Source: an uncultured Bacteroidota bacterium (lineage in GTDB: Bacteria; Bacteroidota; Bacteroidia; Bacteroidales; VadinHA17). Taken from it: DNA of 64,000 bases. The translations under genes were made by a program, and so were the position numbers. The stretch lies in contig CAIJYD010000093.1 in the NCBI GenBank assembly GCA_903824785.1, positions 1 through 64,000 of the forward strand. The letters run 5' to 3'. The notes beneath the pieces are model-generated. The model was not told the DNA's origin. It searched no databases and saw nothing but the letters and a program-made list of their open reading frames with translations. Of the stretch, positions 44,581 to 60,642 are shown one piece after another (position 1 is the first letter of the stretch; each line of letters begins with the position of its first letter).

Positions 44581-44949
44581 TCTGTAAAAATCTTTTGCTT
44601 TTTCCCGCAGGAACCACCCTGATGTTCAAGGCGAAGATTAATTTTTCCCACTCTTCCACCATCTTCATATTATTTACAATGAAATTCTCCTCGTAAAAGA
44701 AGAGAAGGTATTCGATTTTGAAGATTAAAAAAAAGAAATAAAATCATATTCATTAGGTAACATGTTGTTGTACAGGATTATATTATTGATGGCACGTCTA
44801 TTGCTATATCTTTGGTGTAAAATTGGGAAATAACTATACAAAAATTGAATTACCGGGAACTTACAGCCTGAAATTTTTTAAAGGATATTAAATAAACAAT
44901 ATCAAAGGGGGGTAATCAGGGTAGTAAAGCTGATATTAAACAAATAGGG
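44581..44949. other. Control region of the chemosensory cluster
   Basis: No gene. It holds the sigma-54 promoter at 44790-44805. Two copies of GAAGATTAA (about 44635 and 44719) lie ~70-155 nt upstream of it, in the range where enhancer-binding activators usually sit, but they are not demonstrably operators. Confidence 0.6.
44790..44805 (+). promoter_or_regulatory. Sigma-54 (RpoN) promoter
   Basis: TGGCACGTCTATTGCT matches the -24/-12 consensus TGGCACR-N4-TTGCW at every defined position, with the invariant GG and GC 12 nt apart. The transcript would start near 44816, leaving a ~135-nt leader to the first CheW gene. An activator of the NtrC type would be required; none is encoded in the window. 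Confidence 0.8.
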
Positions 44950-45471
44950 ATGTTAACAAAGAAATTATTTACAGCTTCAGGGGATAATGAAACGGTTGGC
45001 AGGAAAATAGAAGCAACGGATCAGATTCTTGTCTTTTCACTCGATGATTTGTCATATGCGCTTCCTTTATCAATTGTAATAAAGGTTATTCACGCAATTG
45101 AGTTTCGCCATTTACCTAATGCTCCGGAGATTATTTCCGGGATTATTAATCTTTACGGAGAGATCATTCCTGTTGCAGACATCCGTAAACGTCTAGGTCT
45201 GGCACCTCGTGAGATTGATCCTGACGACCGTTTGATTATTGCGGTTTCAGGACAAAGGAAAGTTGCTATCGTGGTAGATTCTGTAGCCGGTATCAGAGAT
45301 ATGTTACCCGGAAAAATTTCAGAAGCCGCAGAAACGCTGCCATTTGCAGAGCACATAAAGGGAGTAGCGAAAACTGATGATGGCCTGATACTTATTTACG
45401 ACCTGGTCGGCTTCCTGAGTATTGAAGAGGAGAAAGAACTTGAAAAGGCAATAAAATCAACGATAAAATGA
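44950..45471 (+). CDS. cheW: CheW-like adaptor 1 (WspB-like position)
   Basis: 173 residues; a single CheW domain spans ~22-160, with the hallmark NLYGEIIPVADIRKRLG (~68-84). It should bridge the receptor and the CheA kinase in the chemosensory array. It is the first gene after the sigma-54 promoter, and its stop overlaps the cheR start by 4 nt. Confidence 0.9.
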   Translation: MLTKKLFTASGDNETVGRKIEATDQILVFSLDDLSYALPLSIVIKVIHAIEFRHLPNAPEIISGIINLYGEIIPVADIRKRLGLAPREIDPDDRLIIAVSGQRKVAIVVDSVAGIRDMLPGKISEAAETLPFAEHIKGVAKTDDGLILIYDLVGFLSIEEEKELEKAIKSTIK

Positions 45472-46946
45472 ATTATAAGCTGACTGATATAGAACTTTCA
45501 AGAGTCAGGGAGTTGCTTACCTCACTTACAGGACTTGACTTTCCTTCTGAAAAGAGAGATATGCTTACCAGAAGTCTGGCTTTAGCTGCAACGGAATTTG
45601 GTTTCAAGGAGATGACAGGATTCATTAACTGGCTTACAACTCATTCACTTTCTGAAAATCAAATTCAGACTCTTGCCTCTTTTCTTACAATACCAGAAAC
45701 ATATTTCTGGCGTGAGCCACATGTCTTTGAGGCATTAACAGATGTAATAATTCCAAAACTTGCAAGTTCAAAACTGTCGGGAGAAAAGAGCATCCGGATC
45801 TGGAGTGCAGGTTGTTCCTCCGGCGAAGAAGCATACTCACTGGCCATAGCACTTCACAGAACCTTAAAAAATATTGAAGAGTGGAATATTTCCATACTGG
45901 CTACCGATATTAACCCGAATGTAATCAGCAAAGCAAGAGAAGGAATTTATGGACCATGGTCATTCCGCAATACTCCTGAGTGGTTAAAAAGGAGGTACTT
46001 TAATAAGATCAGCGATAAGAAATATGAGATTATTCCAGAGATAAAAAAGCTTGTGACTTTTGAATGCAGAACTCTTCTTGAAAAGCCGGCAAAGAAAAAT
46101 GAAGGAACAATGGATATTATCTTCTGCAGAAATGTCTTAATGTATTTATCAGAAGAGTGGATCAGGAAAATATCCGATGGATTCTTAAGTTCTCTTACTG
46201 AAAACGGCTGGTTTGCAGTCTCTTCCTGCGAACTTTCTGCAACACTGTTTCCAAAGTTTACACCAGTGAACTTCCCCGGTGCAGTATTATACAGGAAGGA
46301 GAATGAGGAATCATCATCTTCAGCTGATCCTCACTTAACCGGGTTCGATAGCAATTTTTCTTACAACAATATCTCTTCATTGAATTTTGATGATGAAGAA
46401 ATAAAGAGATCGTTCATTGAGAATTCAGGAATAGACTCTATTGCGAAGGACCTTTTTGGCAAAACCGATACAGTTACTGATTCTCAGATCAAATCTGATG
46501 AGATAAATGAAATTAACTCCCTTCAGACCAGAGAGGCAGATGCTCTGACTGAAAGTGAAAATTCAGTTAGATTGCTTGCCGGAAAGGGTAATCTGAAGGA
46601 TGCTCTGGATATCTGCAATGATTTGATCGCAACTTACAGACTCGAGCCGAAGTTATATCTTCTTCGTTCTTCAATACTTCAGGAGATGGATAATAATAGT
46701 GAAGCAGTTTCGTCACTAAGACAAGCTATTTTTTTAAACCCCGATTACATCATGGGGCATTTCACACTGGCAAATTTATTAATAAGGCAGGGAAACTACG
46801 GAAGTGCGAAACGTTATTTTAATAATGTAATTGAACTTACCGGCAGATTGAAGAATGATTCCATTCTTACTGAATCGGAAGGACTATCAATCAGATATAT
46901 CAGGGAGATTACCTTTTCAACCATGCAAATAAAACAGATACTATGA
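45468..46946 (+). CDS. cheR: CheR methyltransferase with C-terminal TPR repeats (WspC-like)
   Basis: 492 residues. The N-terminal CheR helical domain (1-75) leads to TIPETYFWREPHVF and the SAM-binding domain with SAGCSSGEEAYSLA (113-126), ATDINP (145-150) and FCRNVLMY (219-226). A ~100-residue acidic linker leads to TPR-like repeats (~370-470). CheR proteins with TPR tails are typical of alternative-function systems such as Wsp, where WspC methylates the receptor. The gene overlaps both flanking cheW genes by 4 nt. Confidence 0.92.
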   Translation: MNYKLTDIELSRVRELLTSLTGLDFPSEKRDMLTRSLALAATEFGFKEMTGFINWLTTHSLSENQIQTLASFLTIPETYFWREPHVFEALTDVIIPKLASSKLSGEKSIRIWSAGCSSGEEAYSLAIALHRTLKNIEEWNISILATDINPNVISKAREGIYGPWSFRNTPEWLKRRYFNKISDKKYEIIPEIKKLVTFECRTLLEKPAKKNEGTMDIIFCRNVLMYLSEEWIRKISDGFLSSLTENGWFAVSSCELSATLFPKFTPVNFPGAVLYRKENEESSSSADPHLTGFDSNFSYNNISSLNFDDEEIKRSFIENSGIDSIAKDLFGKTDTVTDSQIKSDEINEINSLQTREADALTESENSVRLLAGKGNLKDALDICNDLIATYRLEPKLYLLRSSILQEMDNNSEAVSSLRQAIFLNPDYIMGHFTLANLLIRQGNYGSAKRYFNNVIELTGRLKNDSILTESEGLSIRYIREITFSTMQIKQIL

Positions 46947-47464
46947 ATAAGGAGAATCTGGAAAAACTTAAGAACCGGGCCATTGTCATGGCCGAAGAAA
47001 CGGTACAAAAACAAGAGACATCTTCTGCTACTGAGGTAATTACCTTCATTCTGGATGTCGAAACCTACGCTATTGAATCGGCATTTGTGAGAGAAGTTTA
47101 CCAGATAAAGGATTTTACCACCTTACCGGGTGTACCCTCTTTCATTTTTTGTATAATAAATATTAGGGGTCAGATCCTTCCGGTTATTGACCTTAAAAAG
47201 TTTTTTAACCTTCCTGAAAAGGGTTTTGGTGAACTTAATAAAGTGATTATTCTCAGCAACGACCTGATGGAGTTTGGCATACTGGCTGATGAGGTCCGTG
47301 GAACAGAAACCATTGAGCAGGACGATCTTCAACCCGTTCCTCAAACCATTTCATCGATAGGTGAAGAGTTTTTGAGGGGAGTTACAAAAAAAGGACTCAT
47401 ACTTTTAAATGCAGAGAGAATGTTATCTGATAAAAAGCTTGTGGTATACGACGAGGTAAACTGA
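46943..47464 (+). CDS. cheW: CheW-like adaptor 2 (WspD-like position)
   Basis: 173 residues with a CheW domain from ~28 on, including NIRGQILPVIDLKKFF. It diverges clearly from the first CheW, as in Wsp systems, where the two adaptors have different roles. A basic/coiled N-terminal segment (NLEKLKNRAIVMAEETVQKQ) precedes the domain. Confidence 0.9.
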   Translation: MNKENLEKLKNRAIVMAEETVQKQETSSATEVITFILDVETYAIESAFVREVYQIKDFTTLPGVPSFIFCIINIRGQILPVIDLKKFFNLPEKGFGELNKVIILSNDLMEFGILADEVRGTETIEQDDLQPVPQTISSIGEEFLRGVTKKGLILLNAERMLSDKKLVVYDEVN

Positions 47465-47536
47465 ATATAAATGAGAAAGAATAATTGAATTAAACAGTTG
47501 AAAAATTAATATAAATCTAAAAAAAAAGAATACGCT

Positions 47537-49237
47537 ATGTTTAAAAACATGAAAATTGGAGTACGGTTGATTATGAGCTTAAGCATTATGATTGTTTTAA
47601 TGATTGCCATAATCACTGTCGGAATTTCTTCCATCAATAAGATTAATGAAAATCTGTACAGGGAGGTTAAAATAGATGATGTTCGCCGTGAACTTGCAAA
47701 TAGTATGGTTGATAACGTACGGGAGGTTTCTATTGCTCTGAGGGCTATGTTACTGGAAAAAGGAAATTATTCAATAGAGGAACAGAAAAAGAAAATATCG
47801 GATTTCAGGAACGCATATGATTCAGATATATTGAAATATGAGGAGCTGGTTCCGGAAGGTCAGAATATTATACACGTTCATCTTTCAAAGGTAAAAGCTC
47901 TTCAGGATGAAGCACGGGCTTTGAATAATCTTGTTATTGAATCTGCAAATGAAGGAAGTACTGCTGCAGAAGTTAGTGAAATGCTGAAAACTTCTACCCC
48001 AAAAGTGAATGAATGGCTTGCTTCAGTTAATTATTTAATTAAGCTGGAAAAAGAAAATTCGGTCAGGAATTATGATCATTCAATCAGTCTGTTTGAAAAA
48101 ACACGGCTTAATATGTTAATACTCGGAGTTACCGCCTTTTTGCTGGCTGCCCTTATTGCTCTTATACTAACACTCAGTATCACTAAACCACTTCAGGTTG
48201 CAACAACCCTGGTTACCTCCAGGGAACTGTCCGTAGATGTTTCTGCATATATGAAAGGTAATAGTGAATTGGATCTTATGATACAGTCGTTCAGCAAGGA
48301 GATTTCCGAACGAAAACGGCAGGAAGACGAATTGAAAGTTTACCGCGACCAGCTGGAAGAAATGGTTAATCAGCGTACTGCTGATCTGTCGAATGTAATC
48401 CTTGAAGTTAAAGAGACGGTTAATATCCTCGTTTCCACTTCATCGCAGATACTCGCTGCAACCATACAGGTGGCTTCAGGTACTGCTGAAACTGCAACTG
48501 CCATAACTGAAACATCCACAACAGTTGAGGAGGTTCAGCAGGCTACAAAACAGTCTGCACAAAAAGCTAAAAATGTAGCTGAGAATGCCGAGCTGGTTGC
48601 GAAAGTCTCCAACGAGGGACAAAAAGCTGTTGAGGAGACTGTTAAAGGAATTGGCAGAATAAGGGAACAGATGGACCTTATTGCGCAGACTGTCATCCGG
48701 CTGAGCGAACAAAGCCAGTCGATCGGAGGTATCATTGCTTCTGTAACAGATATTGCAGATCAGTCTAATCTTCTTGCAGTAAATGCAGCTATCGAAGCAG
48801 CTAAAGCGGGTGAAAACGGGAGAGGTTTCGCAGTTGTGGCACAGGAGATTAAAAATCTTGCCGGGCAATCAAAACAGGCAACTCTTCAGGTCAGGAATAT
48901 TCTTTTCGACATTCAAAAAGCAACAGGCGCAGCAGTAATGGCTACAGAACAGGGAAGCAAGGCTGTTGAAGCAGGTGTTATACAGTCAGCTCAGGCCGGG
49001 GAAGCAATACGGATCCTGGCTAAAAGCAGTAATGAAGCAGTTAGTGCAGCCACTCAGATAGTAGCATCCAGCCAGCAGCAGGTTGTTGGAATGGAACAGA
49101 TTGGTGTCGCAATGCAAAATATTAAGCAGGCCGGAACAGAGACTGCCCTTAGTATGGGGCAGTCTGAAAAGTCCGCAAAAAACCTGAATGAGCTTGGCCA
49201 GAAGCTTAAGGATATGGTAGAACGATTCGGGGCTTAG
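47537..49237 (+). CDS. Methyl-accepting chemotaxis-type receptor (WspA-like)
   Basis: 566 residues. Transmembrane segments at ~11-32 and ~191-214 bound a ~158-residue periplasmic helical-bundle sensor of the 4HB type. No ordinary HAMP domain is recognisable; instead a coiled coil of the histidine-kinase linker style ([20 protein letters not shown], ~258-277) follows. The signalling domain (~300-560) has the conserved hairpin [22 protein letters not shown] (405-426). It should drive CheA through the two CheW adaptors. The sensory signal is unknown; a small helical bundle could sense membrane or surface cues. Confidence 0.92.
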
Positions 49238-49308
49238 TCTTTGAGATGGGAGCCGGACAGGTGAAAAATGAGTATGCTGATAAGAAGAATAGTTTAAAAA
49301 GTTGACAA

Positions 49309-51585
49309 ATGGATAAAAAAGAGGAAGAATTTCTAAAGCGGATTCAGGCTACATTTCTGATTGAGGCAGAAGAACATGTCCGTGCATTTTCCTCGGGTCT
49401 GATTGAATTGGAGAAGATTCATCCGGATGGGAAGGTTGATGAAATTACAGAGATCCTGTTTCGGGAAATACACAGCCTCAAAGGGGCTGCCCGTTCTGTC
49501 GATCATAAAGATGCAGAATCTGTCTGCCAGCCTCTCGAGAGTGTCTTCTCTGCGTTGAAAAACAAGAAAATAAAGTTGTCCCCTGATTTATTAGGACTAT
49601 TTTATAAAACATCAGATTTACTCACAAAAGTTTTGCTGAATACTAGTGGGACTCACTCTGGCGACGACCGTAAAATAATGCGGGAATTGATCACCCAGTT
49701 AAAGGAGTCAGCAGAACCTAATCTGCATGAAAGCACAACTGCCGTGGAAAAAATTCCTGATCTGCAGCCGGCTATTTCAGAAAAACTGACTTCTCCGGAA
49801 TCGAATAGTTCTTCAGATATTTTACCTCCTTCCAGAGAGTCGGTAAGGATAAGGATTTCCAAACTCGATCCCCTTCTTTTACAGGCTGAAGAGTTATTGC
49901 AGACAAAGATTGCTATCAGTCAACGCGCCATTGAGCTGGAGGAGATAAGGACAAACATTGGATCATGGATACAGGAGACTCAAAAATGGCGGAGCCAGCG
50001 CTCAGGAGCATCATCTGAAAGGTGGAATGAGTGGATGGAAGAAAATGATTTACACCTTAATGACCTGGAGAACAGGTTAACCTCCCTTGCAGGTCATACT
50101 CAGAAAGATCAGCACAACCTCAGTAATATGGTTGATAATCACCTCGATTCAATGAAACAGATCCTTATGCTTCCTGTTTCTTCTTTAGTCGAGATCTTTC
50201 CTTTAATGGTGAGGGAAATTGCACGTGAACAGAACAAAGAGATAGATTTTAAAATCAATGGTGCCGAACTGGAAATAGATAAAAGAATCCTTGAGGAGCT
50301 TAAAGATCCCCTTATACATCTGATAAGGAACAGTATTGATCATGGTATCGGCAAGCCTCAGGAGCGGATTCTGAAAAATAAACCGGCCGGTGGAAAGATC
50401 AGACTTGACTTCTCTGCCAGAGAAAACGGACAGGTTGAGATTACCCTTTCTGATGACGGAAACGGTATAGATAAGGCGAAATTGATTAAGGCAGCTTTAA
50501 AAAAAGGGTTGCTTTCCGAAGAGGCTGCCGCCATACTTGAACCTGAAGAGTGTTATAACCTTATTTATCAGTCGGGCATTTCAACAAGCTCTATTATTAC
50601 AGATATCTCAGGACATGGATTGGGTCTGTCGATCGTTCGGGAAAAAGTTATTAAGCTCAACGGAAAAATATCTGTTGAATCTGATCCGGGCCATGGGACA
50701 ACTTTCCGTATTCTTCTTCCAATGACACTTTCAACTTTCAGAGGTATAGTTGTTAAGGTTCAGGAATTCGCCTTTATCCTTCCAACAATGAATGTTGAAA
50801 GGGTGATGAAGATAGACCGGGAAGATATCAGAACTGTGGAAAACCATGAAACCATTCTTGTTGGCGATAAAGTAACCTCAATTGTTGATCTCAGGGAGGT
50901 GCTGGGATTGCCTGAAAAAAGGAATTCAGTCTCAGATAATATGGAAACAGAAAACGGTATCTCAAATCAGATTCGTGTCGTTGTTCTCTCCGCTGCTGAA
51001 CTTCGTATCGCCTTTAAAGTGAATGACATAACTGATGAGCAGCAGGTGTTGGTGAAGCCACTGGGAAAACTGCTTAAACGTGTAAGAAATATTTCAGGAG
51101 CTACAATTCTTGGTTCAGGTAAAGTGGTTCCCGTACTGAATATCAGCGACCTTATGAAGACTGCCCTTCGGGTTCATGTAAAAGCTAAAGTAAGCAGGGA
51201 CGGAGATCTGTCAATAAGAAAAACCGGGAAGATCCTTGTTGTTGAAGATTCAATTACTTCAAGGACAATGCTTAAAAATGTTCTGGAGACTTCAGGTTAT
51301 AGCGTGGTTACGGCTTTCGACGGATTAGATGGCTTCACAAAAGCCAGAGACGGGGAATTCGATCTTATCCTGTCAGATGTGGATATGCCCAGAGTAAACG
51401 GATTTGAACTTACAACAAAAATCAGGGCCGACAAAAAACTGAAAGAAATGCCTGTAATCCTTCTGACTGCCCTTGGCTCACAGGCAGACAGGGAGCATGG
51501 TATCGATGTTGGCGCAGATGCATACATCATCAAAAGCAGTTTCGATCAGGGCAACCTGCTCGATATAGTGAAAAAACTTATTTAA
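49309..51585 (+). CDS. cheA: Hybrid CheA kinase with C-terminal receiver (WspE-like)
   Basis: 758 residues. Domain order: Hpt with phospho-His54 (REIHSLKGAA); a Ser-rich linker without a recognisable P2 domain; dimerisation helices (~190-290); ATPase with N box (HLIRNSIDHG, 337-346), G1 (DDGNGID, 382-388) and G2 (GHGLGLS, 435-441); CheW-like domain (~470-615); receiver (~640-758) with phospho-Asp690 (LILSDVDMP). The fused receiver is the layout of WspE and FrzE. It should phosphorylate CheB and downstream receivers, with the fused receiver as sink or gate. Confidence 0.93.
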   Translation: MDKKEEEFLKRIQATFLIEAEEHVRAFSSGLIELEKIHPDGKVDEITEILFREIHSLKGAARSVDHKDAESVCQPLESVFSALKNKKIKLSPDLLGLFYKTSDLLTKVLLNTSGTHSGDDRKIMRELITQLKESAEPNLHESTTAVEKIPDLQPAISEKLTSPESNSSSDILPPSRESVRIRISKLDPLLLQAEELLQTKIAISQRAIELEEIRTNIGSWIQETQKWRSQRSGASSERWNEWMEENDLHLNDLENRLTSLAGHTQKDQHNLSNMVDNHLDSMKQILMLPVSSLVEIFPLMVREIAREQNKEIDFKINGAELEIDKRILEELKDPLIHLIRNSIDHGIGKPQERILKNKPAGGKIRLDFSARENGQVEITLSDDGNGIDKAKLIKAALKKGLLSEEAAAILEPEECYNLIYQSGISTSSIITDISGHGLGLSIVREKVIKLNGKISVESDPGHGTTFRILLPMTLSTFRGIVVKVQEFAFILPTMNVERVMKIDREDIRTVENHETILVGDKVTSIVDLREVLGLPEKRNSVSDNMETENGISNQIRVVVLSAAELRIAFKVNDITDEQQVLVKPLGKLLKRVRNISGATILGSGKVVPVLNISDLMKTALRVHVKAKVSRDGDLSIRKTGKILVVEDSITSRTMLKNVLETSGYSVVTAFDGLDGFTKARDGEFDLILSDVDMPRVNGFELTTKIRADKKLKEMPVILLTALGSQADREHGIDVGADAYIIKSSFDQGNLLDIVKKLI

Positions 51586-51726
51586 ATTTAAATGCATTAC
51601 TATTTATGACACTATTAATATTATTTCTTTTGTTCAGGGCTTACCGGTCATACAGTCTGCTGACAACCTTATCACGATTCAGGCCTTCCAGAGTAAGAAC
51701 CTATCAGCCAATCAAAATTTTTTCAA

Positions 51727-52776
51727 ATGATTAAAGTTCTGATTGTTGATGACTCAAAAGTAGTGCAGGAGCTATTAAAACACATTTTTACATACGATCC
51801 TGATATAAAAGTACTGGGAGTGGCAAACTCAGGCCGAGAAGCTATTGAACTCACCAGGATCCTGAAGCCCGATGTAATAACAATGGATTTCCATATGCCT
51901 GATATTAACGGATCAGAAGCTACACGGATAATAATGGAGACACTTCCTACTCCTATAGTAATTGTAAGCGGAAGCATCAGCACAAGTGATGTAACATATT
52001 CATTAAGCTTACTGGAAGACGGAGCTCTGGCCGTTGTTCTGCGTCCGCCGGGAATCAGTCATCCCGATCATTTCCGTTCGAGCAGGGAGATGATTCAGAC
52101 GATAAAGCTCATGTCTGAAATAAAAGTTGTCAAAGTCTTTCCAAGGCAGCGGAAAGTGCGGTTGCAAATGGCTGAAGAGAAACCTGCTGAGATAAAAAGG
52201 AATTCTGACTTCAGTCTGATTGCAATAGGTGCTTCAACAGGAGGCCCTCTGGTTTTGCAGAAAATCCTCTCAGTATTGCCTTCTGATTTGCCGGTTCCTG
52301 TCCTTATCGTACAACATATTGCTGCCGGGTTTGTTAAAGGTTTTGTGGAATGGTTGTCAACTACTTCAGGAATTCCTTTAACTATCCCTTCAGATGGTGA
52401 GATATTAAAAGCCGGTGTCGGTTATATTGCACCGGATGATTTTCATATGGGAATACAGAATGGACACTCCATTGTCCTCAGCGCTCTTCCGCCTGAAAAC
52501 GGTTTGAGGCCATCGGTAGATTTTCTTTTTCGTTCTGTTGCAGCGGTATCAGGCGGCAATGCCATTGGAGTATTGCTTACAGGAATGGGAAAAGATGGTG
52601 CGGCTGAACTGAAAACAATGAAAGCTACAGGATCCTTAACAATTGCTCAGGACAGCGAAAGTTCCATAGTATTCGGAATGCCAGGGGAAGCTATCAAAAT
52701 AGGAGCTGCCGAACATATATTGCACATGGATAAGATTGGAGGTTTCCTCAAAGATTTAGTGAAAAATAACAGGTAA
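51727..52776 (+). CDS. cheB: CheB receptor methylesterase (WspF-like)
   Basis: 349 residues. Receiver domain 1-120 with phospho-Asp54 (ITMDFHMPD). Methylesterase domain ~160-345 with the triad Ser170 (GASTGG), His197 (VQHIA) and Asp290 (GMGKDGA). Removing receptor methyl groups counters CheR and resets the array. In Wsp, loss of WspF locks the pathway on. The 141-nt gap before it shows no terminator. Confidence 0.93.
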   Translation: MIKVLIVDDSKVVQELLKHIFTYDPDIKVLGVANSGREAIELTRILKPDVITMDFHMPDINGSEATRIIMETLPTPIVIVSGSISTSDVTYSLSLLEDGALAVVLRPPGISHPDHFRSSREMIQTIKLMSEIKVVKVFPRQRKVRLQMAEEKPAEIKRNSDFSLIAIGASTGGPLVLQKILSVLPSDLPVPVLIVQHIAAGFVKGFVEWLSTTSGIPLTIPSDGEILKAGVGYIAPDDFHMGIQNGHSIVLSALPPENGLRPSVDFLFRSVAAVSGGNAIGVLLTGMGKDGAAELKTMKATGSLTIAQDSESSIVFGMPGEAIKIGAAEHILHMDKIGGFLKDLVKNNR

Positions 52777-52790
52777 TAACGAGAGAGTAA

Positions 52791-54965
52791 ATGATTGTTC
52801 CCGAAAAAAAAACCATATTAATTGTTGAAGATAGTCCCACGCAGGCTGAACAGCTAAAATACCTGCTCGAAAGTTACCGGTATAATGTTATGGTAACACA
52901 GAATGGCCGCAAGGCTTTGGAATGGTTATCTGATAATAAACCGTCATTGGTCGTTTCTGATATAGTTATGCCCGAGATAAATGGATTCGACCTATGCCAG
53001 AGAATTAAATCAGATAAGCGTATTGAAGATATCCCTGTAATCCTGTTAACCTCACTTTCTGATCCGGCAGAGGTTATTGATGGGCTTTCTTGCGGTGCTG
53101 ATAGTTTTATTATCAAGCCTTACAACAAAGATTATCTTATCTCCAGTATAGAAAAAATCCTTAGCGAAAAGATCATTGTTGAGAATTTCAGCGATAAGCA
53201 TGGTATTGAGATAAACTATGGTGGAGAAAAAAGACTTGTCATGGCAGGTCAGCAGAAATCGATTAATTTCCTTCTCAATATTTATCAGGGTGCAATTCAG
53301 CAGAATAAAGAACTTATTCAGACAAGGGACCAGCTTAGACTTTTAAATGAGAGCCTCGAAGATCTTGTTGATGAGAGAACCAGAGAGCTTAAAAAAAGTG
53401 AAGAGAAAATCCTCGCCTTTAATGCTGAACTTGAGGAACGGATACTTGAGCGGACCGCTCAGCTTGAAGCTGCCAATAAAGCAAAAAGTGAGTTTCTTTC
53501 AAATATGAGCCATGAGATACGGACTCCTATGAATGCTGTACTTGGCTATGCCGAACTTTTGGGATTTATGATTGATGATAAAATTCAGAAGGATTATATT
53601 GAATCGATCAAATTAAGCGGAAGAAGTCTTCTGACTCTTATTAATGATATTCTCGACTTGTCAAAGATTGAAGCAGGGAAGCTGGAACTTCAGTTTGAGT
53701 TTGTCAACTCCAAATCATTCTTTTCTGAATTTGAACGGATATTTTCCTTAAGTATGGCTGAAAAAGGTCTCAGATTCATACTGGAGATATCTTCAGAAAC
53801 ACCGGCCGGTATCTTTATTGACGATTCAAGGCTCCGTCAGATCCTTCTTAACCTTATCGGGAATTCTGTTAAATTCACAGAAAGCGGCAGCATTAGTTTA
53901 AAAGTTAAATCAGGGAATCCAAGAACAATAGATTCTTCCAATGGGAAAAAAGAGGAATGTATAGATCTTTTTATTGAAGTGACTGATACCGGCATAGGAA
54001 TCTCAAAGGAGACGCAGGAAGAGATTTTCAATCCTTTTGTACAAGGACACCGTCAGAATGCAAAAAGGTATGGAGGAACCGGTCTTGGGCTTGCAATAAC
54101 TCAGCGCCTTGCTCACCTTATGAACGGGACTATCGAACTCGATTCCAGGATGAACGAGGGAAGTTCATTCAAAATAATGATTCCTGAAGTTCCTTATCTG
54201 AGAAATTTTGAAAATAATCCTGAAGCGGTTCAACTGAATCCTTCCGATATTGTTTTTGAAAAGGCTACGATAATTATTGCAGACGATGTGGAACAAAACC
54301 GAAAATTCCTGATAGATGCCCTTCGAAAATCAAATATTGAAATAGTTGAAGCTGAAGATGGCCAGCAAGCCCTGTTGCTTGCTGAGAAAATTGTGCCTGA
54401 CCTTATCATTACAGATATAGGAATGCCGGTACTTGACGGATTTGACCTTTTAGAAAGGTTAAAGAGCAATAAACTCCTGAAAAATATTCCCGTTATAGCC
54501 TATTCTGCGTTAGTTATGAAAGGTCAGAAAGACCGTGTCCGCGAAAGCGATTTTGCCGGTTTATTGATAAAGCCGGTTCAGATAAATAAACTCTACCACG
54601 AACTTATGAATATCCTTCCGTATAAACTATTAATAGGGGATGAACAGGAAAAGGAACAGGCAGAAGCTGAAATGGAGAGTGGAATAACCGATCTCAGCGG
54701 ATTAATAAAATCACTCAGAACAGACTATAATGCTATCTGGGAGACATTTGCCGTCAGGCAGCCAATAGATGAAGTGAGCGAATTTGGCAAGAGCCTGATT
54801 CAGCTGGGACAACTTCATAATTCGGCAGTAGTTATCGATTATGGAAAAAAATTAATAAATGCAACCGATAGCTTTAATATTGAAGCCATCTTAAAACTTA
54901 TTAAAAGATATAATAGAATAATTGAAAGCCTGGACAGTTCAAACAAAAACATTATTTATGGATAA
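52791..54965 (+). CDS. Hybrid histidine kinase REC-HK-REC with a conserved helical tail
   Basis: 724 residues, no membrane segment. N-terminal receiver (phospho-Asp57, LVVSDIVMP), long coiled coil, HisKA with His241 (MSHEIRTPMNAVLGY), HATPase, second receiver (~490-615; IITDIGMPVLDG) and a C-terminal ~80-residue helical domain (~640-722) shared with the kinase gene at 57456-59795. Being cytosolic and led by a receiver, it can take phosphate from the CheA hybrid and relay it. It starts 14 nt after CheB. Confidence 0.9.
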   Translation: MIVPEKKTILIVEDSPTQAEQLKYLLESYRYNVMVTQNGRKALEWLSDNKPSLVVSDIVMPEINGFDLCQRIKSDKRIEDIPVILLTSLSDPAEVIDGLSCGADSFIIKPYNKDYLISSIEKILSEKIIVENFSDKHGIEINYGGEKRLVMAGQQKSINFLLNIYQGAIQQNKELIQTRDQLRLLNESLEDLVDERTRELKKSEEKILAFNAELEERILERTAQLEAANKAKSEFLSNMSHEIRTPMNAVLGYAELLGFMIDDKIQKDYIESIKLSGRSLLTLINDILDLSKIEAGKLELQFEFVNSKSFFSEFERIFSLSMAEKGLRFILEISSETPAGIFIDDSRLRQILLNLIGNSVKFTESGSISLKVKSGNPRTIDSSNGKKEECIDLFIEVTDTGIGISKETQEEIFNPFVQGHRQNAKRYGGTGLGLAITQRLAHLMNGTIELDSRMNEGSSFKIMIPEVPYLRNFENNPEAVQLNPSDIVFEKATIIIADDVEQNRKFLIDALRKSNIEIVEAEDGQQALLLAEKIVPDLIITDIGMPVLDGFDLLERLKSNKLLKNIPVIAYSALVMKGQKDRVRESDFAGLLIKPVQINKLYHELMNILPYKLLIGDEQEKEQAEAEMESGITDLSGLIKSLRTDYNAIWETFAVRQPIDEVSEFGKSLIQLGQLHNSAVVIDYGKKLINATDSFNIEAILKLIKRYNRIIESLDSSNKNIIYG

Positions 54966-56160
54966 AAAGGATATTTCAAATGTAACACCGGATGCAATTC
55001 TGATTGTGGATGACAATCCGCATAATCTTCAGGTATTAGGTAAGATGCTGCAGGAAAACAGATATAAAATTGAGTTTGCCACAAATGGAGTTGCTGCTCT
55101 CGACTGGCTTGACACCAGGCAGTTCGGCCTTATATTACTCGATGTAAATATGCCCGGAATGAACGGCTTTGAAGTTTGTACGAAAATACGTTCAAGACCT
55201 GCCCTGAATAATGTTCCGGTTATCTTTCTATCGGCAGATACCGACAGGGAAAGTATTCTGAAAGGATTCGAACTCGGGGCTCAGGATTATATCACCAAAC
55301 CATTCGACAGCAGAGAGCTTCTGCTGCGGGTAAGAACTCACCTTTCACTTAAGGATAACATTGAAAAGCTTGCGAAACTTAATGAGTCGCTTGAAGATAA
55401 AGTGAAAGAGCGAACAGAACAACTGAATGAAGCCAATGAATTACTGGAGACCCAGAATCTTAAATTAATGGATCTGGACAGGGCTAAAGCAAGCTTTCTT
55501 AAACTTATAAGCCATGAGATACGTACCCCGCTGAATGGTATTATTGGTCCGTTGGAACTCCTTAAGGGACCACTGGATGCAAGTGATATTGCCGATCTGA
55601 TCGATATTCTTGATTCTTCTGTGAAAAGACTCGAGAGGTTCTCATTAAATGCCCTCCTTATTACCAGGCTAAAGACAAACCAGCAGGATATAAGGAAAGA
55701 TGAACTCAGGCTTTCAGCTATTATTGATGATCTGCTGGAGGAAGAAAAAGAGAGATTAGGTCAGGGAAATAAAACAGTAAAGAGAATTAATCAGGTATCA
55801 ATTGACCTTATTTGCGGCGAGGCTGAACTGATCAGAAAATGTATTGGAAACATAATCGACAATGCAATTATTTTTTCTCCCGATAACAGTACCATCGAAG
55901 TCAGAACATTTGTTGATAATCAAAATATTGTCTGCGAAATTAATGATTCAGGAAAAGGTTTCGAGGATGAAACCATCAACAGGGTTTTTGAATTATTCTC
56001 GGCAGCTGATGAATACAAAGATAATTCCACCGGAACAGGAATATCGCTGGCTAAAATGATCATTGAAGCACACGGAGGGAATATACAAATTTCAAATAAC
56101 CCTGCCGGAGGCGCTTCAGTTAAGTTGCTGTTTAAAAAAATGGTGAAGGTGGTACTATGA
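54958..56160 (+). CDS. Receiver-histidine kinase (REC-HK)
   Basis: 400 residues from the ATG at 54958, which overlaps the preceding stop by 8 nt; a further ATG at 54922 would overlap by 44 nt and adds no recognisable domain. Receiver 1-125 (LILLDVNMPGMNGFE), coiled coil, HisKA (LISHEIRTPLNGIIGP) and a HATPase with a reduced G2 box (NSTGTGISLAK). No output receiver is attached. It probably acts as an intermediate in the phosphorelay of the chemosensory cluster. Confidence 0.9.
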   Translation: MDKKDISNVTPDAILIVDDNPHNLQVLGKMLQENRYKIEFATNGVAALDWLDTRQFGLILLDVNMPGMNGFEVCTKIRSRPALNNVPVIFLSADTDRESILKGFELGAQDYITKPFDSRELLLRVRTHLSLKDNIEKLAKLNESLEDKVKERTEQLNEANELLETQNLKLMDLDRAKASFLKLISHEIRTPLNGIIGPLELLKGPLDASDIADLIDILDSSVKRLERFSLNALLITRLKTNQQDIRKDELRLSAIIDDLLEEEKERLGQGNKTVKRINQVSIDLICGEAELIRKCIGNIIDNAIIFSPDNSTIEVRTFVDNQNIVCEINDSGKGFEDETINRVFELFSAADEYKDNSTGTGISLAKMIIEAHGGNIQISNNPAGGASVKLLFKKMVKVVL

Positions 56161-56199
56161 ATAATAAAAGAACAATAAGGAATATTTATTTTTTTTGTG

Positions 56200-57393
56200 A
56201 TGGGAAAAATGGAAGTTTTTAGTCAGTCATCGGTTTTGATTGTGGATGATAATGTTAAGAATCTTCAGGTTCTTGGTGGCTTTTTACGAAAAGAGGGAAT
56301 TCTCATTGAATTTGCTCTCGATGGCGCTTCTGCTTTAAGCTGGCTTGATAAGAAAAAATTCGACCTTATCCTGCTCGATGTTATGATGCCCGGAATGGAT
56401 GGTTTTGAAGTGTGCAAAAGGATAAAGAACAACCCTGCCATCAGCGAAATCCCAATAATATTTATTACTGCAAAAACAGATTCGGAAAGTGTTGTTAAAG
56501 GATTCGAAACAGGAGCAGTTGACTATATAACCAAACCTTTTATTCACAGCGAACTTCTTGTCAGGGTAAGAACACAGCTAAGCATTAAACGGTCGAATGA
56601 GCAGGTTGCCCTTTATCTTAACCAGATTGAGGAGCGAAATAAGGATATCAGCGATAGTATAGAATATGCAAAGAGTATCCAGAATGCAGTTTCAAGCAGT
56701 TCGGTGAAAAATCTTGAATATCTGCCGGAACAGTTTATCCTCGATCTTCCGAAAGATATTCTGAGCGGTGATTTTTACTGGATATGCAAAACAGAAAAGA
56801 AGATTATTATCGCTGTAATGGATTGCACAGGACATGGTGTGCCCGGTGCCTTAATGAGTATTCTTGGCAATACATTGCTGAATGAAACCGTATTAAGTGA
56901 TCATATATTCCGTCCCGATAAAATCCTCGAGAGCCTTCGTTCAAAGATTATACGCGCTCTGGGTCAGAGAAAAGGGGATGGCTTTATTAAAGACGGAATA
57001 GAAGGATCTGTTATCTGTTTCGATACCGAATCCAATAAACTTCAGTATTCAGGTGCTTTCAATCCAATGATTCTGATACACAACGGATTAATACGCGATA
57101 TTAAGGCTAATAGATTCCCAATAGGGTATTATGAAGTAAACGGAAGCTTTTCACTTCATGAAATAAATATTGAAAAAGGCGATCTGATCTTTCTTTTTTC
57201 AGATGGTATAGTTGATCAGTTCGGAGGACCAAAAAACAGACGGTTTATGCTAAAAAACCTTAAGGATATTCTGACACTGAACAGTAATCAGACAATGGTG
57301 GCTCAAAAGGAATTGTTAATAAAAGAACTCAGCGAATGGAAAGGTTCACTGGACCAGACTGATGATATTCTGGTTCTTGGGATCAGGTTTTAA
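56200..57393 (+). CDS. Receiver-PP2C (SpoIIE/RsbU-type) phosphatase
   Basis: 397 residues from the ATG at 56200 (a GTG stands one codon earlier). Receiver 1-125 with LILLDVMMPGMDGFE, a coiled coil, then a SpoIIE-type PP2C domain with the metal motifs LSGDFYW, MDCTGHGVPGALMS, FSDGIVDQ and QTDDILVLGIR. RsbU-like phosphatases dephosphorylate an anti-anti-sigma (STAS) protein, linking phosphorelay input to partner switching. No STAS or anti-sigma gene is in the window, so its target lies elsewhere. It is the best candidate for the output of the chemosensory cluster. Confidence 0.9.
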   Translation: MGKMEVFSQSSVLIVDDNVKNLQVLGGFLRKEGILIEFALDGASALSWLDKKKFDLILLDVMMPGMDGFEVCKRIKNNPAISEIPIIFITAKTDSESVVKGFETGAVDYITKPFIHSELLVRVRTQLSIKRSNEQVALYLNQIEERNKDISDSIEYAKSIQNAVSSSSVKNLEYLPEQFILDLPKDILSGDFYWICKTEKKIIIAVMDCTGHGVPGALMSILGNTLLNETVLSDHIFRPDKILESLRSKIIRALGQRKGDGFIKDGIEGSVICFDTESNKLQYSGAFNPMILIHNGLIRDIKANRFPIGYYEVNGSFSLHEINIEKGDLIFLFSDGIVDQFGGPKNRRFMLKNLKDILTLNSNQTMVAQKELLIKELSEWKGSLDQTDDILVLGIRF

Positions 57394-57455: not shown

Positions 57456-59795
57456 ATGGATTATTTAAATAAATCAAAAACTGAGCTTATTGATGAGTTA
57501 ATCAGACTGAAAAAGGTGGAACAGGAACTGAAAGAAAGTGTTGGTCAGTTTAGAAATTTATTTTACAGCCACGATTCCATAATGCTGCTTATTGATCCGG
57601 AGAAAGGTTCTATCGTTGATGCAAACAATGCCGCTTCAAGGTTTTACGGATATTCAGTTCCAACATTATGCTCAATGTTAATTCAGGATATTAATACAAT
57701 GTCACCTGAAGAAAATGCCATTGAGAGAAAAACGGCAATGAGTGAAGCGAGAAATTTCTTTATTTTCCAGCATAGACTTTCTTCCGGCGAAAAACGATTT
57801 ATGGCAGTTCACTCTTCACCAATTGTCTATGAAGGAAAGGCTATCCTGTTTTCAATTATGAACGACATAACTGAGGCCAGGAACGCAGAGATTGAACTTA
57901 AACAAATATCGGCCCGTTATAAATTAGCTGTGCGTGCAGGTGGTGTAGGGGTATGGGATTTTGATGTTGTCAACAACATTCTTTTATGGGACGATCAGAT
58001 GTTTGAGTTGTATGGCTTAAGCAAAGAAAATTTCAGTGGTGCTTACCAGGCATGGCAGAGCGGCCTGCATCCCGGCGATAGGGAAAAGGGCAATGAAGAT
58101 ATAAGGCTGGCTTTAACAGGAGAGAAGGATTTTGATACCGAGTTCAGGGTTGTATGGACAGATGGCACTGTGCGTAATATGAGAGCGCTGGCTGTTGTTC
58201 AGCGCGACGACTTAGGTAAGCCGCTTCGTATGATCGGAACAAACTGGGATATTACTGCTGTCAAGCGGGCGGAAGAAGAGATCATTAATGCTAAAACTGA
58301 AGCCGAAAGGGCAAACAGGGCAAAAACTGAATTTCTGGCTAATATGAGCCATGAAATCCGTACTCCGCTGAATGCAGTACTGGGCTACTCAGAACTGTTG
58401 GCATTAACCGATGTTGACAATTTGCAAAGAGATTATATTGACTCGATTAAATCAAGCGGGAAAAGCCTTCTGAAATTGATTAATGATATTCTTGACCTTT
58501 CGAAGATAGAAGCAGGAAAACTTGAGCTTGAACAGAATTATGTTCATACGCATTCATTCTTCTCTGAGTTTGAAAGAATTTTCGCTTACAGCGTGAAAGA
58601 GAAAGGGCTGAACCTTATAATTGAAATAAAATCTGGTGTGCCGAGGGGAATTTATGTTGATGAGACAAGACTCCGGCAGATAGTTTTTAATCTTATCGGT
58701 AATGCTGTTAAGTTCACTTTTCAGGGTCAGATAGCTGTAAAAATATTAACCAAACCTTCTCAGGTCATTAATAATTCAGTTGGGAAAACTGAGGAATTAG
58801 TAGATTTGATAATTGAAGTACATGATTCCGGTATTGGAGTCTCAAGGGATTTGAAAAAGGTTATTTTTGAGCCCTTTACCCAGGGAAAAAATAAAGGTAC
58901 AGGAGGAACCGGATTGGGACTTGCAATTACAAAGAGACTTGTAATGCTGATGAATGGAACTTTAAGTTTGAAATCAAAACCTGAATCAGGAAGTATATTT
59001 ATCGTCAAAATCCCTGATGTTTCGTTTCTGCGCGATTTATCAGATACCATTATTAATGTACAGATCAATACTTCGGAAATCTTATTTAAGGAGGCCGTAA
59101 TACTTATTGTTGATGATGTTCAGCATAACAGAAAATATCTTAAGGATGCCCTTGTTAATACACCGCTTAAAATTGTTGAGTCGGAAAACGGTGAGGATGC
59201 TTTCCGGGTTGCCAGGGAGATTGTCCCCGACCTTATAATTTCTGATATTCAGATGCCTTTGATGGATGGTTTCGGATTGCTTAACAAAATAAAATCCACC
59301 AGTAAACTGAAACATATTCCTGTCATTGCTTATACCGCCTCCGTCCTAAAAGAACAGAAAGAGCGCATTCAGAACAGTAAATTTGCCGGTCTTCTCATTA
59401 AACCCGTTAAGGTCACAGAACTATATCTTGAGCTGATGAATTTTCTGCCATTTGAAAGAGTGACGGAACTAAAATCTTCAGAAATCGTTCTTATCGATGA
59501 AATAATCAATCTGCCTGAGTTAATTTCTTCGCTTGAAACAGGCTTCTATGATGACTGGAAGATCTTTTCCGTCAGGCAACCTATTGACCAGATATTGGAT
59601 TTCGGAAAAAAACTGGTAACTCTCGGGGAGAAACATAATGCTGCGGTTATAACCCTTTATGGCAGTGAAATGATAAAGGCAGCTGACTGTTTCAATATTG
59701 AAATAATATTAAAACTGGTAGGAGAGTATGAGTCCCTTATCAATCGTCTTAAAGTATCGTCAGATCCGGCCACTTCCGTAGTATCAGTTAATTAA
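57456..59795 (+). CDS. PAS-PAS hybrid histidine kinase with receiver and conserved helical tail
   Basis: 779 residues, no membrane segment. PAS 1 (~25-140) and PAS 2 with PAC (~150-275; FRVVWTDGTVRNMRA), HisKA (MSHEIRTPLNAVLGY, ~307-321), HATPase (GTGGTGLGLAI), receiver (~540-660; IISDIQMPLMDG) and a C-terminal helical domain (~685-765) sharing VRQPID, FGK, HNxAV, YG and FNIE with the tail of the kinase encoded at 52791-54965. The two kinases are clearly paralogues from HisKA to the end. It may add a cytosolic (redox or small-molecule) input to the same relay. Confidence 0.9.
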   Translation: MDYLNKSKTELIDELIRLKKVEQELKESVGQFRNLFYSHDSIMLLIDPEKGSIVDANNAASRFYGYSVPTLCSMLIQDINTMSPEENAIERKTAMSEARNFFIFQHRLSSGEKRFMAVHSSPIVYEGKAILFSIMNDITEARNAEIELKQISARYKLAVRAGGVGVWDFDVVNNILLWDDQMFELYGLSKENFSGAYQAWQSGLHPGDREKGNEDIRLALTGEKDFDTEFRVVWTDGTVRNMRALAVVQRDDLGKPLRMIGTNWDITAVKRAEEEIINAKTEAERANRAKTEFLANMSHEIRTPLNAVLGYSELLALTDVDNLQRDYIDSIKSSGKSLLKLINDILDLSKIEAGKLELEQNYVHTHSFFSEFERIFAYSVKEKGLNLIIEIKSGVPRGIYVDETRLRQIVFNLIGNAVKFTFQGQIAVKILTKPSQVINNSVGKTEELVDLIIEVHDSGIGVSRDLKKVIFEPFTQGKNKGTGGTGLGLAITKRLVMLMNGTLSLKSKPESGSIFIVKIPDVSFLRDLSDTIINVQINTSEILFKEAVILIVDDVQHNRKYLKDALVNTPLKIVESENGEDAFRVAREIVPDLIISDIQMPLMDGFGLLNKIKSTSKLKHIPVIAYTASVLKEQKERIQNSKFAGLLIKPVKVTELYLELMNFLPFERVTELKSSEIVLIDEIINLPELISSLETGFYDDWKIFSVRQPIDQILDFGKKLVTLGEKHNAAVITLYGSEMIKAADCFNIEIILKLVGEYESLINRLKVSSDPATSVVSVN

Positions 59796-60190: not shown

Positions 60191-60628
60191 ATGAAGCTAA
60201 AAACTATATTGCTGGCAGAAGACAATGAAAATGATATTGTGCTTACCCTGGAAGCACTTAAGGAGTTTCATCTTGCTAATACAATTGTTGTTGTAAATGA
60301 TGGTGTCGAAGCACTCGATTATCTGCGTTCAGAAGGGAAATTTACAGGACGAAACTCCGGTAATCCTGCTGTGGTTATGCTCGATCTGAAAATGCCGCGT
60401 CTTGATGGTATAGAGGTATTGGCAGAAATCAGAAGTGATCCTAAACTTAAGCTGATTCCGGTTGTTATTCTAACATCTTCAAAAGAAGATAAAGATTTAC
60501 TTAATTCTTATTCTCTGGGAGCCAATGCTTATGTCGTTAAACCGGTCGATTTTAATCAGTTTGTTGTTACCATTAAACAAATGGGTTCCTTCTGGGCAAT
60601 AATTAATGAACTTCCTCCATCTAAATAA
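60191..60628 (+). CDS. Single-domain response regulator (Rcp1-like)
   Basis: 145 residues, one receiver: acidic pair AEDNEND, phospho-Asp in VVMLDLKMPRLDG, Thr/Ser switch VILTSSKED and Lys in VVKPVDF. The extended loop before the phospho-site (RSEGKFTGRNSGNP) is typical of the Rcp1 group that accepts phosphate from phytochrome-like and PAS kinases. Likely a diffusible phosphate carrier. It is 14 nt upstream of a hybrid kinase gene. Confidence 0.92.
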   Translation: MKLKTILLAEDNENDIVLTLEALKEFHLANTIVVVNDGVEALDYLRSEGKFTGRNSGNPAVVMLDLKMPRLDGIEVLAEIRSDPKLKLIPVVILTSSKEDKDLLNSYSLGANAYVVKPVDFNQFVVTIKQMGSFWAIINELPPSK

Positions 60629-60642
60629 TTTATAACTACAGC

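Follow-up and report, generated by a model that had tools for sequence, protein, structure and literature searches.

A chemosensory gene cluster of an uncultured Bacteroidota bacterium with a conserved receiver-linker module as the putative link to a phosphatase-switch kinase

The stretch of DNA analysed here (hereafter the window) comprises 64,000 nucleotides of an uncultured Bacteroidota bacterium (positions 1 to 64,000 of contig CAIJYD010000093.1, assembly GCA_903824785.1). It carries a chemosensory (Che) gene cluster that continues directly into genes for two receiver (REC)-bearing histidine kinases (HK) and a receiver-bearing SpoIIE-type (PP2C) phosphatase (Table 1). Open reading frames and a Pfam scan of the window proteins, in which every named domain scored above its cut-off, agree with the nine-gene content proposed in the initial annotation, i.e. 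CheW, CheR-TPR, CheW, MCP, CheA-REC, CheB, REC-HK-REC, REC-HK and REC-SpoIIE. The tight packing described there holds for the 4-nt overlaps and for the 14 nt that follow CheB, but not for the MCP, CheA and CheB genes, which are separated by 71-141 nt (the gaps from the first CheW to REC-SpoIIE are -4, -4, 72, 71, 141, 14, -44 and 36 nt). The proposed start of the cluster, 44790, precedes the first start codon (44950) by 160 nt.

Inspection of the window proteins found the CheA motif HSLKG, the H-boxes of the kinases and the PP2C motifs intact. The middle gene of the output set (REC-HK) begins with TTG as called, and an ATG located 36 nt further on is also conceivable. The transcription unit probably extends to the adjoining PAS-PAS-HK-REC gene. 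A REC gene and a REC-PAS-HK-REC gene, 14 nt apart, are found 395 nt beyond this unit (60191-62571). The hybrid kinases share a C-terminal tail after their second receiver (window 54590-54965 and 59400-59795), to which nothing in Pfam matches. A histidine of this tail is conserved in 15 of 16 aligned sequences, and the tail is possibly a divergent phosphotransfer domain.

Table 1. Genes and modules of the cluster, with related features of other loci
Feature	Position	Strand	Basis or remark
CheW (first)	44950..45471	+	PF01584, 94 bits
CheR methyltransferase with C-terminal TPR	45468..46946	+	PF01739, 166 bits; TPR_2 and TPR_8 above cut-off
CheW (second)	46943..47464	+	PF01584, 103 bits
Chemoreceptor: four-helix-bundle sensor (4HB) and MCP signalling domain	47537..49237	+	PF12729, PF00015
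CheA: Hpt (HSLKG), HATPase, CheW, C-terminal REC	49309..51585	+	Pfam, motifs, tree
CheB: REC and methylesterase	51727..52776	+	PF01339, PF00072
Hybrid kinase RECL-HisKA-HATPase-REC with C-terminal tail	52791..54965	+	Pfam; identity to kinases at Che-less loci
RECL module: receiver and conserved linker of ~75 residues (hybrid-kinase residues 5-206)	52803..53408	+	RECL profile, 264 bits; linker-only profile
REC-HisKA-HATPase kinase (middle gene of the output set)	54922..56160	+	Pfam
REC-SpoIIE (PP2C) phosphatase; motifs SGDFYW, DCTGHGVPG, SDG, TDD	56197..57393	+	Pfam, alignment, motifs
PAS-PAS-HK-REC kinase	57456..59795	+	Pfam; 62 nt past the REC-PP2C gene
Second RECL kinase	L049 13882-17556
Second RECL kinase	L050 13647-16223
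Second RECL kinase	L051 2708-5647
Second RECL kinase	L055 1402-3549
RpoD-like sigma factor	L212 1099-1962		Sigma70_r3
RpoD-like sigma factor	L213 1246-2106		Sigma70_r3

The cluster was initially taken for a Wsp system whose output protein WspR had been replaced. The component set WspA-F of Pseudomonas does match that of the window, and in Wsp it is the output protein WspR that CheA phosphorylates. The window CheA was placed among 106 CheA kinase units in a quickly built tree, which has long branches and contains no Pseudomonas WspE. A plasmid search returned mostly unrelated receivers; two of its records, and seven of the 31 retained at a stricter limit, served as references. The window CheA falls within a clade of 89 rows (SH-aLRT 98) that spans Bacteroidota, Thermodesulfobacteriota, Nitrospirota, Acidobacteriota, Chloroflexota and other phyla. 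The Wsp-type clusters that bear GGDEF (L206, L208 and L211), together with L205, form a separate clade of their own (100), composed of Cupriavidus, Mesorhizobium and Novosphingobium GGDEF clusters and one Burkholderia CheA. Also outside the window clade are the CheA of E. coli and another type of CheA from the same order. The window CheA stands on the side of the Wsp-type proteins and one Chp-like CheA, but this split is weak (83) and is drawn among references that carry no class labels. Wsp orthology was dismissed because of the two separate clades: judged by the CheA tree, the parts list of Wsp is present, yet the system is not Wsp. A second type of cluster occurs in three genomes of the order (L058 4240-17958, L059 and L060), with the gene order REC, o588, REC, CheA without REC, CheW, CheR, small HK, a gene for ~160 residues, CheB and a gene for ~760 residues.

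A fusion of CheR to TPR and multidomain response regulators are marks of the alternative-cellular-functions (ACF) class of chemosensory systems, according to two published accounts (PMC3447774, PMC10542144). The window contains both, the regulators being REC-HK-REC, REC-HK and REC-SpoIIE. Because of these marks, the CheA-REC fusion and the lack of FliM, the array is likely an ACF-class system. FliM, the flagellar gene that was searched for, had zero matches in the genome. These features support the ACF class expected earlier; the deep branches of the CheA tree, at which it would part from the flagellar and type IV pili classes, are weak. The surface or envelope sensing proposed initially is neither supported nor contradicted by the data. 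CheW domains number three in the genome (4.69 Mb, 97.8% complete), and all of them are in this cluster. The absence of GGDEF noted for the window is true of the whole 4.69 Mb, where no match was found, and a GGDEF protein encoded elsewhere was thereby ruled out as the acceptor of the CheA phosphate.

We then examined what follows CheB in related clusters, in which gene labels derive from profiles built for this analysis. In 64 of 80 named loci CheB has a neighbour on its own strand at a distance of up to 300 nt; the 16 excluded loci comprise 10 with no CheB found, one whose CheA was unrecognised and five with no such gene (three of them near a contig end). The adjacent gene encodes a kinase in 49 cases, a GGDEF motif in five and a receiver joined to some other part in ten. 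Pfam found a receiver in all 64 proteins, HisKA in 48, HATPase_c in 45, GGDEF in eight, EAL in three and HD in one, counted among the best 25 of 31 families. Since 49 of the 64 genes encode a kinase, a receiver-kinase at the place of WspR is the norm in this CheA lineage. SpoIIE is found in two of 46 second or third genes after CheB, and a profile and motif search of the 988 open reading frames of the 80 loci located PP2C in L114 and L117 only, both from the genus of the window (genomes G014 and G042). In a genome of another family (G075), a PP2C without receiver lies near a Che locus. The expectation that the downstream receiver genes are conserved with the core thus holds across phyla for the receiver-kinase next to CheB, but within the genus only for PP2C. 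The survey of CheR-TPR clusters by Munoz-Martinez et al. (2012) reports receivers fused to HK in ~40% and to GGDEF in some 20, and the legend of its Figure 7 names the Ser/Thr phosphatase family 2C among receiver fusions (PMC3447774). Receiver-HK and 2C-phosphatase outputs having been published there, the output described here is unusual though not unprecedented. Among the titles and abstract openings listed by literature searches, none concerns a Bacteroidota array with a PP2C output.

The CheB-adjacent proteins have in common ~205 N-terminal residues, i.e. a receiver and a linker of ~75 residues, whatever output comes next; we refer to this module as RECL. A RECL profile, trained on the same 64 proteins that it scored (with the window protein excluded and two same-genus proteins included), gave 224-304 bits for 61 of them and 151, 186 and 212 bits for the other three. 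Beyond the 64, 28 proteins including the window hybrid kinase reached at least 224 bits, and all others at most 144. A linker-only profile, built from 48 non-Bacteroidota sequences and searched against 1521 proteins, retrieved residues 132-205 of the window kinase (E 8.6e-17). Below L158 (4.7e-11) this ranking contains just two weak kinase matches (2e-5 and 1e-3) and then noise, to which every REC-HK and REC-PP2C protein of the Che-less loci belongs. No Pfam family covers the linker of the window protein at E 0.001. Among the best 25 NCBIfam matches of each protein queried, the only models above cut-off are one of a general kind for CheB and that of the sigma superfamily. PDB entry 3gt7 aligns to RECL profile positions 7-152 only. 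In one Che-bearing relative (G051) the CheB-adjacent gene encodes a stand-alone RECL of 202 residues, which ends where the window protein continues into its kinase.

The association of RECL with this CheA was examined in 296 genomes of the phylum (thresholds CheA E 1e-100 and RECL E 1e-38), in two scans limited to about 10 and 3 scored candidates per genome. CheA was found in 30 genomes, RECL in 38 and both in 11, compared with 3.9 expected (Fisher 3.5e-4). Each of these 11 has a RECL on the strand of a CheA and no more than 1.7 kb downstream of it. Family f71 accounts for 20 of the 27 genomes with RECL and without this CheA, with RECL-like kinases at 179-194 bits. Four Che-bearing relatives possess a second RECL kinase after REC-PP2C (262-274 bits; Table 1), at the place taken in the window by the PAS kinase, which suggests fan-out from CheA.

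The output genes are also found without the array. Full CheA is present in seven of 62 same-genus genomes, in none of seven from other genera of the family and in two of 47 others in the order. In six of the seven same-genus genomes the gene after CheB is RECL-HK-REC, and REC-PP2C comes one or two genes later; the middle gene lies between them in five and is absent from G017, where REC-PP2C comes directly after the RECL kinase. The core of G023 is divided between two contigs, and in the seventh genome, G051, the kinase set lies on a different contig from the Che core. The REC-PP2C subfamily occurs in all seven Che-bearing genomes and in five of the 55 others (six if a contig-cut one is counted), an association with Fisher probabilities of 1.6e-6 or 3.5e-6, respectively, uncorrected for relatedness. 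Six genomes without this CheA contain a hybrid kinase, the middle gene and REC-PP2C (G041, G036, G020, G056, G010 and, with cut genes, G003).

Over its kinase-REC-tail part, the window hybrid kinase shares 54-68% identity with kinases encoded at seven Che-less loci (L190, L192, L193, L194, L195, L197 and L201). This identity starts at window residue 167-221 in six of them and, for the split gene of L197, at residue 286. None of these kinases contains RECL; their best RECL scores (67-82) land on their C-terminal REC. PAS is labelled in L190 and L192-L196, as well as in fragments of L191 and L197. The PAS-PAS-HK-REC kinase of the window belongs to the same kinase family, but with PAS input, and its HK-REC part is 51-60% identical to the RECL hybrid kinases of L048, L049, L050, L051 and L055. 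Because the same kinase body bears RECL beside Che genes, and PAS without RECL at Che-less loci, the pattern is that expected of a swap of the input region, which would in part have exchanged REC-PAS for RECL.

Candidate components for the end of the pathway are encoded elsewhere in the genome, unlinked to the cluster. There are two stand-alone STAS genes, one further STAS within a frame of 587 residues and one strong HATPase_c_2 (RsbW-like kinase) gene, which lies next to a ybeY-like gene. An Hpt gene abuts one of the STAS genes (L001 1477-2211, G000:C73), an adjacency seen in 25 of the best 30 STAS loci of the genus. The receiver and PP2C motifs of the window phosphatase are intact, as required of a partner-switch phosphatase of the HsbR/CrsR/RsbY kind, and the genus-wide Hpt-STAS pair and the RsbW-like kinase could complete such a switch. 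An alternative sigma factor, proposed initially as the output, finds no counterpart among the Sigma70_r3 proteins: the genome has two (Table 1), which reach 111 and 120 bits with SigBFG against a cut-off of 234 and match RpoD models best, below the cut-offs of those models. A SigB-type target was dismissed on these grounds; no SigB/SigF-type factor was found in this search, in which ECF (extracytoplasmic function) factors were not examined.

We consider it somewhat more probable than an even chance (roughly 0.53) that an array of the ACF kind delivers its CheA output, through RECL, into the hybrid kinase of a phosphatase gene set that exists elsewhere without this CheA, the array taking the place of a PAS-bearing input. 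The domains, gene order, module boundaries and catalytic motifs were observed, as was the presence of the Hpt-STAS pair and of the RsbW-like gene; all phosphotransfer steps and the sign of control are inferred, and so are the role of STAS as substrate and the final target. The receptor array would control CheA, which would phosphorylate RECL, with its own REC as a sink and CheB providing adaptation. Phosphorylated RECL would either stimulate or inhibit the attached kinase. This kinase would then set the phosphorylation of REC-HK and REC-PP2C, directly or by way of its C-terminal REC and an Hpt from a separate gene, and REC-PP2C would dephosphorylate the STAS protein(s) that the RsbW-like kinase phosphorylates. 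The window has the architecture of a relay of the CheA-CheS3 type, i.e. CheA together with a hybrid kinase bearing an N-terminal receiver, and phosphorylation of such a receiver (REC1) by CheA has a precedent in CheA3-CheS3 (PMC3868531). The path from Hpt through REC-PP2C to STAS has one in HptB-HsbR-HsbA (PMC6482189).

As it does with WspR in Wsp, CheA might instead phosphorylate the receivers of REC-PP2C (and REC-HK) directly, which would make the hybrid kinase a side branch or an opposing input. The intact receiver of REC-PP2C, whose gene is the fourth after CheA, and the arrangement in G017, where no middle gene intervenes, are consistent with such a route. It is nevertheless unlikely, given that both receivers lack the linker and score with the RECL profile at the level of ordinary receivers, that close relatives of REC-PP2C exist in genomes without this CheA, and that RECL proteins are general among the 80 named loci, PP2C being confined to the two same-genus ones.

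Several observations weigh against the transfer of CheA output through RECL into a phosphatase switch. At the thresholds used, 27 of the 38 phylum genomes with RECL are without this CheA and 19 of the 30 with CheA are without RECL. The swap does not amount to a plain replacement of a sensor by a receiver: L192, L193, L194 and a fragment of the split L197 have an N-terminal receiver of a different type ahead of PAS; L201 is truncated at its N-terminus by a contig end, and the genes of L191 and L197 are split; L195-L197 lie in Che-bearing genomes, at other loci; and L196 and one fragment of L191 are just 45-46% identical to the window kinase (the other L191 fragment is 67% identical over 139 residues). 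The middle gene of the window, 52-66% identical to that of the Che-less sets L190, L191, L192 and L194, encodes an intact REC-HK, as does its counterpart in G041, G020, G056 and G036. In seven other loci it encodes a REC protein of 227-237 residues with neither H-box nor ATPase, the receiver being its conserved part. Since seven of the 12 aligned middle genes are of this reduced form, a linear, serial relay through REC-HK was dropped as a general rule. The STAS gene has an orthologue (E 2e-20 or better) in 54 of the 62 same-genus genomes, with or without Che, and the genome holds ten SpoIIE genes. A pairing of STAS with this PP2C is not specific, because STAS is genus-wide and unlinked and SpoIIE genes are many; STAS was dismissed as a Che-specific partner, and the Hpt-STAS pair is at best a shared hub. 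The STAS and anti-sigma partners predicted for PP2C thus exist as stand-alone STAS genes and an RsbW-like kinase, but neither linked to the cluster nor specific to Che. Finally, the REC-PP2C tree needs four changes of the Che label, compared with a mean of 5.2-5.3 after shuffling (83-93 of 500 shuffles were as low). Because these changes resemble those of shuffled labels, the descent of REC-PP2C does not track linkage to Che. In the kinase tree the Che label changes once, the single Che grouping being weakly supported (61/54). As the two trees disagree, the output genes seem to have been reshuffled.

The interleaving of Che-linked and Che-less members in the REC-PP2C tree is what would be expected if the genes were mere neighbours. 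In that case the RECL kinase would close the Che core, and REC-HK and REC-PP2C would answer to the adjoining PAS kinase or to others. That PAS kinase belongs to the same kinase family, sets with PAS kinases occur without Che, and in G051 the core and the kinase set are on separate contigs. However, six of the seven Che-bearing same-genus genomes retain REC-PP2C one or two genes past the RECL kinase, which itself shares the catalytic body of the output-set kinases, and we regard mere adjacency as slightly more doubtful still than direct phosphorylation of REC-PP2C by CheA.

What is new here, and the more interesting part of our results, is the conserved RECL adapter and the swap of kinase input. 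Tentatively, at something short of even odds, these may be joined in a broader proposal, in which RECL is an undescribed CheA-acceptor cassette that drives varied effectors (kinases, GGDEF, EAL, HD or none) across many phyla, and in which an array has, in this genus, seized a pre-existing phosphatase-switch kinase by exchanging its PAS-bearing input for RECL. A kinase body that has a PAS input in some species, and in others a receiver facing the array, provides a natural pair for the study of array rewiring, and the RECL boundary offers a sequence marker for predicting which protein CheA targets directly in many arrays not yet characterised. A partner switch is, moreover, predicted in a Bacteroidota genome that lacks both a SigB-type sigma factor and GGDEF enzymes.

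Several known systems resemble parts of the proposed pathway. In the sigma-B pathway of Bacillus cereus, RsbM is a CheR-like protein and RsbY is a REC-PP2C; unlike the window, this system is not known to include a CheA, CheW or MCP array, and its target is sigma-B. The likeness extends to a hybrid kinase with a C-terminal REC that is tuned by methylation (RsbK-RsbM; PMC4574943). Wsp shares with the window its component set, including CheA-REC and CheR-TPR (WspC; PMC3447774), but the window CheA belongs to a separate clade, its MCP gene sits after the second CheW and its genome is devoid of GGDEF. The 2012 survey of CheR-TPR clusters contains, in the portion consulted, no RECL adapter, input swap or Bacteroidetes (PMC3447774). 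The Campylobacterota REC-PP2C-kinase proteins similarly connect a receiver-bearing PP2C and a STAS target, by prediction, with a chemoreceptor; their proposed action, likewise a prediction, is on the chemoreceptor and not downstream of CheA (PMC9239204). The HptB-HsbR-HsbA pathway of P. aeruginosa also combines hybrid kinases, an Hpt protein, a REC-PP2C and a STAS protein, but HsbR has an additional kinase/anti-sigma domain, no array takes part, and the pathway works via FlgM, RpoS and the cyclase HsbD (PMC6482189). In the Che3 system of Rhodospirillum centenum, described as an ACF system, CheA3 carries a C-terminal REC and phosphorylates REC1 at the N-terminus of a hybrid kinase; that kinase, CheS3, acts on the single-domain CheY3 in the control of cyst formation (PMC3868531), whereas the hybrid kinase of the window has a second REC and is followed by REC-HK and REC-PP2C.

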